Source of the DNA: an uncultured Eggerthellaceae bacterium
GTDB taxonomy: Bacteria; Actinomycetota; Coriobacteriia; Coriobacteriales; Eggerthellaceae
DNA: 64,000 nt
NCBI GenBank assembly: GCA_944321455.1
Contig: CALULI010000006.1
Location: 186,001 to 250,000 of the forward strand
Reading direction: 5' to 3'
This document shows, piece by piece, positions 10,719 through 49,004 of the stretch (its first letter is position 1; every line of letters begins with the position of its first letter). Under the pieces are notes generated by a model, which did not search any database, had not been told where the DNA came from, and worked only from the letters and a program-made list of their open reading frames with translations. Both the position numbers and the translations under genes were made by a program.

Positions 10719-11475
10719 GGACAGGAATACCGCACGATGCCATGTATTCCTTCACTTCGCGAATAGTCAATTCGCCAAAATGGAAAACGCTTGCCGCAAG
10801 CACCGCATCCGCTTCGCCTTCAAGAATGCCTTCAGCGAAGTGCTCCAACTTGCCAACACCACCCGATGCAATAACGGGAATGTTGACCGCCCGTGCAACA
10901 GCGCGCGTCAGCGGAATATCGAAGCCGTCTTTGCTGCCATCGCGATCCATACTGGTCAGCAAAATTTCGCCCGCACCGCGCTTGGCTGCTTCGGCAGCCC
11001 ACTCAACCGCATCAATGCCCGTAGCCTTGCGACCACCGTGCACATAGACCTCCCACTTGTTGGGGTTGCCAGGTACCTGCTTAGCATCAATGGCGCACAG
11101 GATTGCCTGCGTGCCGAAAGCGGCGGCTGCCGTGGTGATCAAGGACGGATCTGCGATAGCGGCCGAATTGATAGACACCTTGTCCGCGCCTGCCGCAATC
11201 ATGGTACGGATATCATCAACCGACCTAAATCCGCCACCCACGCAATAAGGCAGGTGCAGCTCTTCGCTGGCGCGGCTTGCCATATCAACCGTGGTCTTGC
11301 GGCCATCGCTGGTAGCCGTGATGTCCAAAAAGATAACTTCATCGGCGCGTTGTTCGTCGTAGCGCTGAGCAAGTTCAATAGGATCGCCCGCATCGCGCAA
11401 GTTCACGAAGTTAACGCCTTTTACGACGCGACCATCTTTAACATCCATGCACGGAATAACGCGCTTAGTAAGCAT
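10711..11475 (-). CDS. hisF: Imidazole glycerol phosphate synthase, cyclase subunit
   Basis: TIM-barrel cyclase that, with HisH, converts PRFAR plus ammonia to imidazole glycerol phosphate and AICAR. The start chosen is [12 protein letters not shown], giving 254 residues, the normal length. Asp11 ([12 protein letters not shown]) and the second catalytic Asp in CAIDAKQ (about 130) are present, as are the phosphate-binding loops GGGFRS and ASGGVG. The reading frame is open upstream, but that stretch is the repeat-derived end of hisA. The hisF start lies 11 bp inside the end of hisA, so translation is probably coupled. Confidence 0.96.
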
Positions 11476-12340
11476 TACGGGCACCGCCCTCACAGGTACC
11501 ATCCGTGCGAACGCCACCCTCGCAAGCACCATCTTCGAAAAGACCATCCGCGCAGCCATCACCCATGCATTCGCCGCAGTGCTTGTCGCGCACAAAGCGT
11601 GCAATTACCTTGTTGGTAGCCGCATCACACTGTTCAAAGCCCTGCGCAACATTGAGAGTGCCCTCATACACAGCGCGTCCCGCAATAACACCTTCAATAT
11701 AGGCGGCCACTTCGCCTAACTGGGCAATGTCGTTGTTATTAGCAACGCCACCCGAAGCAATAACGGGGTGGCCAAAGATCTTGGCAATTTCAACATAGCG
11801 CTGGGTATCAATGCCAGTCTGCATGCCATCACGAGCAATATCGGTAAAGATGAGATGCTTAAAGCCCATCTTGCCCACTTCAGCAATCAGCTCTTCCGCA
11901 GGAACACCCGCACCTTCGCGCCAGCCCTCAACAGCCACTTCGCCATCTTTGGCATCAATGCCTGCTGCCAGTAAGTCACCATACTGCGCAAGTGCTTCCT
12001 TGGCGAAGTCCCGATTGGCAACCAGCGCCGTTCCCAACACCACGCGCGAAACGCCCGCATCATAGAGACGCTTGATGGTGTCCAAGCTGCGAATGCCACC
12101 ACCAACTTCAACCTTGAGGAAGGTGCCATCCAAAATGCGCTCGATGGTTTCAATGTTTTCAGGAGTTCCCGTACGCGCACCATCCAGGTCAACCACGTGA
12201 ATCCAACGCGCACCTGCTCGCTCAAATTCACGCGCCTGCGCTACAGGATCATCGTTATAGATAGTTACGGCGTCGTAGTCGCCTTTTGCTAAGCGAACCA
12301 CCTTGCCGCCAAGAATATCAATTGCTGGTAGAAGTTCCAT
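11465..12340 (-). CDS. hisA: ProFAR isomerase (HisA) with a Cys/Gly-rich C-terminal extension
   Basis: Isomerises ProFAR to PRFAR on a TIM barrel. Catalytic Asp8 ([15 protein letters not shown]) and the second Asp ([15 protein letters not shown], about 128) are present, with EVGGGIRS and IASGGV phosphate loops. The fold should end near residue 245. Here the chain runs to 291 residues, adding about 45 rich in Cys, Gly and Asp ([26 protein letters not shown]). The matching DNA is a 15-bp imperfect tandem repeat, so the tail looks like a repeat expansion that removed the old stop. CxxC pairs could bind metal, but I infer no function. It overlaps hisF by 11 bp. Confidence 0.93.
11470..11572. repeat. 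15-bp imperfect tandem repeat in the 3' end of hisA
   Basis: Plus-strand units such as CGTGCGAACGCCACC, CTCGCAAGCACCATC, TTCGAAAAGACCATC and CGCGCAGCCATCACC follow each other in register. They encode the extra C-terminal residues of HisA and resemble the units in the aroE 3' end. Confidence 0.75.
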
Positions 12341-44470: not shown

Positions 44471-44558
44471 GGAGGAATGGCAGAGTGGTTGAATGCGGCG
44501 GTCTTGAAAACCGTTGTACCGAGAGGTACCGTGGGTTCAAATCCTACTTCCTCCGCCA
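44471..44558 (+). tRNA. tRNA-Ser (anticodon TGA)
   Basis: 88 nt with encoded CCA. Acceptor GGAGGAA / TTCCTCC, anticodon loop CTTGAAA (TGA), variable arm TTGTACCGAGAGGTACC, T loop GGTTCAAATCC. Reads UCA and related codons. Confidence 0.97.
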
Positions 44559-44566
44559 GACGTATC

Positions 44567-44599
44567 AAAAGCCGAAACAGTTGTTGTTTCGGCTTTTTT
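44567..44599 (+). terminator. Terminator of tRNA-Ser (TGA)
   Basis: 13-bp stem AAAAGCCGAAACA / TGTTTCGGCTTTT with a short loop and T-run. Confidence 0.9.
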
Positions 44600-44619: not shown

Positions 44620-45609
44620 CTAGAATTCAGCGTCTCCCTGGCGAAAATCTCCCTGGAGAGAGCCGCCCTGGTGAACACCACCCTGATAAAGATCATCCTG
44701 GCAAAGGCCAACCTGATGATCTTCCTGATGAAGGAAGAACGTTTCCATGACGTAATCAATGGGCATTTCGCGACCAATCCACAAACGCTCAGCCATAGCA
44801 GCCTGCTGAACAAAGATGCCTGCGCCATTGATAACCTTGTTGCCGTGGTTGCGTGCCATCTTAATCAGCTGCGTTTCGCACGGTAGATACGTGGTATCAG
44901 CCACAATCAAGCCATCATGAAGATAGCTTTCATCCAGCAATGATTCAGGATGCTGCTCTGATCCTGCAAGCGTTGCATTCAGCACCAACGTAGACTCCGC
45001 AAGGGAAGCGCGCAACTGATCCGTGTCGGCAAGGTCATAGATATGAATCGCACACGATGAATGCTCCTTCAAGCGCTCAATAAGCGCCTGCCCGCTTTCG
45101 AAAAATTCGTCCTTGGCATTAAAGACGTCAATCTGAGCGACCCCATCAAGAGCAGCCTGCGTGACCACGGCCGATCCCGCACCACCAGAACCTAAAACGG
45201 TAATCTTGCGACCTAAAATGTTGACGCCGTTGAGCACCAGCGTGCGCATAAAGGCAGAACCATCAGCGTTGTCCCCCAAAAGGCGACCATTTTGGATAAC
45301 GACCGTATTAACAGCACCCATAATTTCTGCCACTTCAGAAATTTCATCCAAGTACGGCAGGATTTGCGTCTTAAACGGAGAGGCAACGGTAAAGCCAAGA
45401 AAGCCCAAAGCCTTCATGCCACGAACGGCCTCTTCTAAATTTTCGCGTTCAATATCAAAGGGAATGTAGGCAAAGTTGTATCCCATTTTTTCAAAAACAG
45501 CATTATGGACAACAGGAGAGCCCGAATAGCGAACCCCGTTGCCAATAATGGCAATCAGGCGCGTTTCGCCGTTGATGTGAAGGCCCTTTCCCCCTTTAAA
45601 AGCGTTCAT
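44620..45609 (-). CDS. Shikimate dehydrogenase family protein (AroE-like) with a repeat-derived C-terminal tail
   Basis: A 329-residue AroE-fold NAD(P) oxidoreductase. The start MNAFKGGKGLHING was preferred to an ATG two codons earlier that abuts the AAGAAAG ribosome site. Substrate region: GVRYSGSPVVHNAVF; catalytic Lys in VASPFKTQ (canonical N-V-T-x-P-x-K is altered to F-T-V-A-S-P-F-K); catalytic Asp in GDNADGSAF (usually NTD); Rossmann loop VLGSGGAGSAV; C-terminal GAGIFVQQAAMAERLW. So the Lys-Asp pair is kept, but flanking residues differ and this may be a quinate- or other polyol-type relative. The last 35 residues are repeats of about five residues (QGGVH, QGGSL, QGDFR) encoded by 15-bp tandem DNA repeats. 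Confidence 0.88.
   Translation of the reverse strand: MNAFKGGKGLHINGETRLIAIIGNGVRYSGSPVVHNAVFEKMGYNFAYIPFDIERENLEEAVRGMKALGFLGFTVASPFKTQILPYLDEISEVAEIMGAVNTVVIQNGRLLGDNADGSAFMRTLVLNGVNILGRKITVLGSGGAGSAVVTQAALDGVAQIDVFNAKDEFFESGQALIERLKEHSSCAIHIYDLADTDQLRASLAESTLVLNATLAGSEQHPESLLDESYLHDGLIVADTTYLPCETQLIKMARNHGNKVINGAGIFVQQAAMAERLWIGREMPIDYVMETFFLHQEDHQVGLCQDDLYQGGVHQGGSLQGDFRQGDAEF
44629..44738. repeat. 15-bp imperfect tandem repeat in the 3' end of the aroE-like gene
   Basis: Plus-strand units CTGGCGAAAATCTCC, CTGGAGAGAGCCGCC, CTGGTGAACACCACC, CTGATAAAGATCATC, CTGGCAAAGGCCAAC, then two shorter copies. Period 15 keeps the frame and encodes a pentapeptide repeat in the C-terminus. Confidence 0.88.
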
Positions 45610-45768
45610 ACACATTCTTTCTTATCGGTGTATAGGTAGTTGATACTTTAGCGCAAGACAATCCCGCTTGGCTAAATAAGCGCAATATCACTATGAATAT
45701 TTCGTTTTGTTAGCGGCATAAAGCAACACCGCCGTGCTACCATCATGGAGAACAGAGAAGGGGGTTGT

Positions 45769-47059: not shown

Positions 47060-48934
47060 TTACGATAAGCGCTCCGATAGCTCCAGCCAGGTTTCTTCAA
47101 GCGCGTCCATATCGTCTTGAAGCGCCTGGATTTCTTTTTGGACCTCGCCCAGCTCAATATAGTTGGATGGATCAATCTCAAGCTGCTTTTGACGCGCTTG
47201 CGCAATCTTTTTCTCCAGCGTGTTCATCTTGCGCTCGGTGGAGTTGAGCTGCTTGCGCAACTCGTGCACTTCGCCACCGCTCAAACCTGATACGGGGGTG
47301 CCTGCACCGCCTTGCGCGTTTGCGCCACCTTGCGCGTGCGCATCGCTTTGCACGCTAGCATCGTTTTGCGCGCTTGTGCCACGCTGATTGCGTGCATTAC
47401 CCTGTCTGCTCGCACTGGCGTCGCCTGTGCGAGCAGACTCCAAAAGCTCTAGGTATTCATCAACCCCACGTGGAACATGACGAATCTTGCCATCAATAAG
47501 CGCATACTGATGATCCGTCACGCGCTCCATAAGCGCACGGTCATGCGTCACCAAAATCAAGGTACCTGGCCAGGTATCCAGCACGTTTTCCATAGCAACC
47601 AACATGTCCGTATCAAGGTCGTTGCTGGGCTCGTCCAAGATCAGCACGTTAGGCGCATCCAGCAAAATAAGCATCAGCTGCAAGCGTCGTTTCTGCCCGC
47701 CTGACAACGCCTTGACCTGCGTTTTAAGGTAGCGGCTATCAAAACCAAGATCTTCCATCAGCTGCGCAGGAGACACGGTCTTGCCGTCGATCACGTAATG
47801 GGACTGATAGTGGCCAAGCACAACACGCACGTAGTCATCGGCGAATTCGTCAAGCTCTTCTAACTTCTGAGAGAGAAACGCTATCTTGACCGTCTTACCA
47901 ATCTTGACGGTTCCCGTCTGGGGATGAAGCGTGCCGCGAATAATATCAAGAAGCGTTGACTTACCCGCGCCGTTTTCGCCCAAAAGACCAAAACGGTCTC
48001 CTGGCCCAATGAGCCAGGTTGCATCATCAATCACGCGCTTTTCATCATAGGCAAACGTGATGTTTTCTAACGTGATGCACTGCTTGCCCAATCGAGACAT
48101 TGCCGCCCGTTTTAATTCAATGGAGTTGCGAAGCGGCGGCTCTTCGGCAATCAATGCACGCGCCGCTTCCACGTGAAACTTTGGCTTTGTCGAACGCGCC
48201 CGCGCACCACGCGAAAGCCACGCAAGCTCACGACGCATCAGGTTCTGGCGCTTCTGTTCAGCCAACTGAATCTGACGCTCACGTTCTACCCGCTGCAAAA
48301 TGTAGGCTGAGTAGCCGCCCTCAAACGGCGTCACGCCGCCATCGTGAACTTCCCACATGCGCAGGCAGACCTCATCAAGAAACCAGCGGTCATGCGTTAC
48401 CACGATAAGCGCTCCAACACCGCGCGAAAAGCGCTTCTTCAGATGGTCCGCCAACCAAGCAATGCCGCCAATATCAAGATGATTGGTGGGCTCGTCAAGC
48501 AAAACAACATCAGCATCGGCAACCAACACGCGCGCCAAATCGACGCGACGGCGCTCCCCGCCCGAAAGGTTATCCACCGTCTCATGCCAATCAAGATCAG
48601 ACACCAACCCGTCAAGAATAGAGCGAATGCGCGCATCACTTGCCCATTCATATTCAGGAATATCGCCCACAATGTTTTCTGCAACGCTTTTTGCATCATC
48701 AAGCTGATCCTTTTGCTGAAGGTGAGCAAAGCGAACACCGCGGCTGCGCAAAACGCGTCCCTCATCAGGCTCCACCGAACCTGAAAACAATCCCAAAAGC
48801 GATGATTTACCATCTCCGTTTCGGCCAACAACACCAATACAGTCTCCCGCATCAACACCAAGAGAAAGGTTGTCGAAGATGACCTTCGTTGGATATTCCA
48901 AATGAACTTTTTCGCAGCCAAACAAAAAGGTCAT
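47060..48934 (-). CDS. ABC-F ATPase, Uup-like
   Basis: A 624-residue protein with two ABC cassettes and no membrane helices. First cassette: Walker A VGRNGDGKSSL, signature LSGGERRRVDLARVL, Walker B VVLLDEPTNHLD. Second: LGENGAGKSTLLDII, LSGGQKRRLQLMLILL, LILDEPSNDLD. The linker RRELAWLSRGARARSTKPKF and a C-terminal coiled coil (about 560-624) assign it to the Uup group, which acts on ribosomes or branched DNA/RNA. Between the second cassette and the coiled coil is a Gln/Ala/Asn/Gly stretch of six-residue repeats (AQNDAS, VQSDAH, AQGGAN, AQGGAG). Confidence 0.93.
   Translation of the reverse strand: MTFLFGCEKVHLEYPTKVIFDNLSLGVDAGDCIGVVGRNGDGKSSLLGLFSGSVEPDEGRVLRSRGVRFAHLQQKDQLDDAKSVAENIVGDIPEYEWASDARIRSILDGLVSDLDWHETVDNLSGGERRRVDLARVLVADADVVLLDEPTNHLDIGGIAWLADHLKKRFSRGVGALIVVTHDRWFLDEVCLRMWEVHDGGVTPFEGGYSAYILQRVERERQIQLAEQKRQNLMRRELAWLSRGARARSTKPKFHVEAARALIAEEPPLRNSIELKRAAMSRLGKQCITLENITFAYDEKRVIDDATWLIGPGDRFGLLGENGAGKSTLLDIIRGTLHPQTGTVKIGKTVKIAFLSQKLEELDEFADDYVRVVLGHYQSHYVIDGKTVSPAQLMEDLGFDSRYLKTQVKALSGGQKRRLQLMLILLDAPNVLILDEPSNDLDTDMLVAMENVLDTWPGTLILVTHDRALMERVTDHQYALIDGKIRHVPRGVDEYLELLESARTGDASASRQGNARNQRGTSAQNDASVQSDAHAQGGANAQGGAGTPVSGLSGGEVHELRKQLNSTERKMNTLEKKIAQARQKQLEIDPSNYIELGEVQKEIQALQDDMDALEETWLELSERLS
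47290..47430. repeat. 18-bp imperfect tandem repeat in the Uup linker
   Basis: Plus-strand units TTGCGCGTTTGCGCCACC, TTGCGCGTGCGCATCGCT, TTGCACGCTAGCATCGTT, TTGCGCGCTTGTGCCACG, CTGATTGCGTGCATTACC follow at exact 18-bp spacing, encoding a hexapeptide repeat. Confidence 0.85.
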
Positions 48935-48948
48935 GATAGCGTTCTCCT

Positions 48949-49004
48949 CAAATTCTCAAATTCTCAAATTCTCAAGTTTTCAAATTTTCCAATACTCAAA
49001 TTCT
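48949..49004. repeat. 8-bp x 7 tandem repeat upstream of the uup-like gene
   Basis: CAAATTCT x3, CAAGTTTT, CAAATTTT, CCAATACT, CAAATTCT: seven contiguous 8-bp units, starting 15 bp before the leftward uup-like ATG. A looser 14-15 bp repeat (GCATTCGCGCAAA, GCCATTCGAACAAAA) follows at 49050-49094. The 264-bp spacer must contain both divergent promoters. Confidence 0.9.

Follow-up and report, generated by a model that had tools for sequence, protein, structure and literature searches.

A lineage-specific array of 15-bp repeats, likely an in-frame minisatellite, extends the C-terminus of an AroE-like protein in an Eggerthellaceae bacterium

Short protein repeats tend to sit at the ends of proteins and to overlap disorder (PMC7230257). 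The array described here lies in an aroE-like gene of an uncultured Eggerthellaceae bacterium, within a 64,000-nucleotide stretch of contig CALULI010000006.1 (hereafter the window), and resembles the known intragenic tandem repeats and minisatellites in having a unit length that is a multiple of three, an in-frame position at a protein terminus, predicted disorder of its product and a lineage-specific distribution. It departs from them in the considerable divergence of its units (about 62% identity) and in its host, which codes for a paralog of a housekeeping enzyme instead of a surface protein; moreover hisA, another enzyme gene in the same region, carries a similar unit. The host protein is like the shikimate dehydrogenase family (AroE / YdiB) in fold, in the catalytic K82 and D118 positions and in the NADP motif GSGGAG, but departs from that family by its C-terminal tail and by substitutions where the substrate site is usually conserved (NVTxP to TVASP and NTD to NAD); literature searches found no description of a shikimate dehydrogenase that has a tail of this kind. 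With the pentapeptide repeat proteins (PF00805) the array shares a five-residue period, and when read antisense it bears a superficial likeness to A(N/D)LXX, whereas the translated frame reads xQGGx, matches no profile and is predicted to form no folded structure. We consider it likely that the tail is a lineage-specific in-frame minisatellite extension that arose ahead of the stop codon and is tolerated. It offers a clear before-and-after example of how in-frame growth of repeats ahead of the stop can give a bacterial enzyme a disordered tail, although for now it only illustrates, on a small scale, a process already known.

The aroE-like gene occupies 44620–45615 on the minus strand of the window and codes for 331 amino acids. 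Both the N-terminal substrate-binding domain (Shikimate_dh_N, PF08501, E = 1.6e-26) and the C-terminal domain (PF18317, E = 8.7e-06, at its cut-off) are present, and NCBIfam shikimate dehydrogenase models match with a best E of 9.7e-89, a value that nevertheless falls under that model's curated cut-off. The conserved fold spans residues from about 13 to 294 (44734–45579, minus strand); profile matches end at residues 290–296, and homologs end there or a few residues further on. It had been proposed that the fold reaches to about FVQQAAMAERLW and one further helix, and both the profile ends and an AlphaFold model, with its last helix at residues 286–299, agree. In the substrate-site motifs NVTxPxK and GxNTD the K and the D are kept, while the N and T of NVT and the T of NTD are changed; judged from these residues, the window copy may act on another substrate or be under relaxed constraint. 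The 1.55-Mb genome holds four AroE-like paralogs, the window gene (44620–45615) and those at L037, L038 and L039.

The part of the protein past the fold is 37 residues long (295–331; LHQEDHQVGLCQDDLYQGGVHQGGSLQGDFRQGDAEF), so that the original prediction of a tail beyond the AroE fold stands while its length of 35 residues does not. The array codes for 34 of these residues (295–328), which follow the pattern xQ[G/D][G/D]x. AlphaFold gives a good AroE core and a pLDDT of about 30 for residues 298–331 (from a shallow alignment of four sequences), and by sequence the tail matches nothing in Pfam or among solved (PDB) chains; on the model, the tail is most likely a disordered extension.

The array itself covers 102 bp at 44632–44733 on the minus strand, comprises seven units (five of 15 bp, one of 12 bp and one split into 6 and 9 bp) and codes for LHQEDHQVGLCQDDLYQGGVHQGGSLQGDFRQGD. 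It is laid out as CTTCAT, then CAGGAAGATCAT (12 bp), then five intact, in-register 15-bp units (CAGGTTGGCCTTTGC, CAGGATGATCTTTAT, CAGGGTGGTGTTCAC, CAGGGCGGCTCTCTC and CAGGGAGATTTTCGC) and finally CAGGGAGAC, which bears out the earlier proposals that 15-bp tandem repeats lengthened the C-terminus and that at least five in-register units are present. Every part is a multiple of three in length, and the reading frame is open across the whole array to the TAG. Across an 84-bp core the identity at lag 15 is 0.70, a value found nowhere else in the window at lags divisible by three up to 39 and reached by none of 5000 shuffles at any lag from 3 to 30 (maximum 0.52), and an ungapped repeat finder places direct repeats at spacings of 15, 15, 15 and 15. 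Tandem Repeats Finder, run with a minimum score of 30, does not list the array because the copies have diverged: units differ pairwise at about 38% of positions, and the degenerate unit is CAG GNN GRY NYT YNY, with CAG unchanged in all seven. Third-position G+C is 0.44 in the aroE frame, close to the 0.47–0.54 of native genes, but 0.88 in the two frames resembling pentapeptide-repeat proteins, a contrast that favors the minisatellite reading.

The array is genuine and lineage-specific. The tail is absent from about 40 AroE-family C-termini drawn from the three same-genome paralogs, three congeners, the family, the order and three Firmicutes, all of which end at most a few residues past the fold or in unrelated sequence; a tail conserved in other AroE proteins would have marked a true domain. 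DNA, protein and pattern searches of the organism's own genome for further copies of the tail gave short chance matches only. A search of 138 genomes of the family gave mostly weak composition matches and one true 15-bp array, in genome G156, and a pattern scan across the family likewise found no run of such repeats except at that genome's ogt/rlmH locus.

The comparison is limited to one genome per species, and the closest relative in it is a syntenic ortholog in the congener G001 (L042), 61% identical, with the gene order aroE-like, antisense tRNA-Ser(tga), tadA common to both. The congener gene ends ACC TTT TTC GCT GAA TAG, without an array, and the window gene ends ACG TTC TTC, the 102-bp array, then GCT GAA TTC TAG. 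The last 12 bases of the window gene (44620–44631, minus strand), GCT GAA (A-E) followed by TTC TAG, thus appear to be a retained ancestral end, since GCTGAAT is identical to the end of the congener ortholog; for the same reason the array most simply, and from this alignment most likely, entered in frame two codons ahead of the stop without displacing the old end. That the repeat had inserted at the stop codon and replaced it, as first supposed, is not supported, for the ortholog's GCT GAA and a TAG stop persist behind the array. This insertion history is drawn from one ortholog and seven bases, and an additional TTC now precedes the TAG, so that the history of the last bases is less certain.

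The sequence of events we envisage is that, after the split from the congener, an array of roughly 102 bp made of a degenerate 15-bp unit arose or inserted two codons before the stop, the unit having been amplified by replication slippage or unequal recombination, which would be the simplest account of the array. Adding whole units, and in one step 12 bp, would keep the frame, because the unit is five codons without a stop in that frame, and the protein would therefore have gained a disordered 34-residue tail after its last helix. The tail would be expressed and tolerated rather than selected, and the extension is probably near-neutral. The mechanism is a known kind of event. Counting against a minisatellite are the divergence of the units, which excludes a fresh expansion and means that something may preserve the register, and the similarity of the hisA unit, which independent slippage alone does not explain.

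The link to hisA is the sole unexpected part of the case and may reflect shared origin or shared selection. The hisA gene (11465–12340) carries its own C-terminal 15-bp repeats at 11480–11584 on the minus strand, detected by lag scan, 33 kb from the aroE array and on the same strand; the match to the HisA profile extends to about residue 237, the hisA stop overlaps the hisF start, and the array is found in none of the HisA C-termini read from family relatives. Relatives have neither tail. When a weight matrix of the aroE unit was run over both strands of 864 kb of the genome (the window plus sampled stretches, 56% of the total), hisA was the best other place with a score of 36.9, while the next array scored 25.4 and no place outside an array exceeded 17.9; the best scores in samples of other genomes were 11.1 (G001) and 9.3 (G022). 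The two unit profiles also match best when strand and codon phase agree (column shuffling, p = 0.003). These results favor the view, to which we give a minor share of belief, that the tails are related, either by copying of a 15-bp array between the genes or by selection for a common motif x-[QE]-[GD]-[GD]-x; if the arrays do share an origin, they would suggest a repeat able to lengthen proteins while keeping the frame intact. Against it, no linear register of units between the arrays stands out, which makes a recent block copy unlikely, no third gene in the sampled 864 kb has an array as similar to the aroE/hisA unit, and units are identical at 7.7 of 15 positions between the arrays but at 9.3 and 8.9 within them. 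Broader still, and in our judgment improbable, is a 15-bp repeat family that moves among the 3' ends of genes in this lineage (the aroE-like gene, hisA and a look-alike ogt/rlmH array in another genus of the family) and furnishes unrelated enzymes with frame-neutral xQGGx/xEGGx tails; if true, it would amount to a repeat element that extends proteins or to a peptide tag common to them.

Other readings concern the aroE tail alone. Selection for a functional disordered extension (in partner binding, solubility or localisation), which we regard as rather unlikely, would fit the frame left intact across 34 codons, the invariant CAG and the D/G-rich consensus that persists although the units diverged; yet a stop-free array of multiple-of-three length stays open unaided, invariance can be leftover repeat identity, and no relative has a homolog of the tail. 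The plus strand of the array, read as VSLAK ISLER AALVN TTLIK IILAK ANLMI, brings to mind a piece of a PF00805 gene that was captured in antisense orientation to aroE, and on a matrix built from the family's pentapeptide-repeat proteins its score of 17.2 ranks with the highest of random stretches of the window. This best score has p = 0.044 against column-shuffled repeats, however, three translated frames of the array give no Pfam PF00805 match at E up to 10, and neither this genome nor three congeners contain a PF00805 match, so that such a capture is very improbable. We hold an assembly or sequencing artefact to be the least credible of all: tandem repeats are known to cause assembly error (PMC6868369), but 102 bp is shorter than the usual read length, the copies are well diverged, the frame is intact on either side and the flanks are syntenic with the congener.

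HisA C-termini in the bacterial family (L202–L226) are highly variable, and in many whose stop overlaps the start of hisF the last residue is Cys. A lag scan covering 464 kb of the genome found two C-terminal arrays besides that of aroE, the one in hisA and a QQRAE/QQRAG 15-bp array on a 1071-aa ORF (G000:C6:410135-410260; L134:10135-10260), whose unit bears a weak resemblance to the aroE unit on the opposite strand. The same ORF holds a second, internal 15-bp array (SAETT-like, L134:7764-7876). C-terminal 15-bp arrays at z of at least 5 occur in 3 of 740 ORFs of this genome and in 0 of 621 in G001 and G022 together, numbers too small for a claim of enrichment. The array in G156 (L069:1513-1647) has nine 15-bp units (QGGL-like) and lies between convergent ogt-like and rlmH-like genes; none was seen at the matching gene ends of G014 (L141) and G157 (L140). 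Because a similarity search of 138 genomes brought it up, we regard it as a parallel and do not count it as evidence of kinship. A long acidic pentapeptide tail of 15-bp period (PEVVE-like, L099:1290-1820) is found on a MurJ-like membrane protein of G014.

Downstream of the aroE-like gene lies its convergent neighbor, a tRNA-Ser(tga) gene (44471–44558, plus strand) identified by ARAGORN, with matches of 88–96% identity in congeners and the same order in the congener. Between the two, the repeat finder located a perfect 13-bp inverted repeat ending on both sides in T/A runs (44567–44597), resembling a bidirectional terminator. The array alone on the aroE strand is not unusually stable as RNA (z = -1.6), and a longer stretch that contains the array has z = -4.5 with the terminator hairpin included. 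Elsewhere in the window, an ABC-F-like protein that starts at 48934 on the minus strand has an 18-bp-period repeat (SAQNDASVQSDAHAQGGANAQGGA, 47286–47395) in its linker, and directly upstream of its start lies an array of seven 8-bp units (CTCAAATT, 48947–49004), the copy number of which could affect expression of this ATPase.
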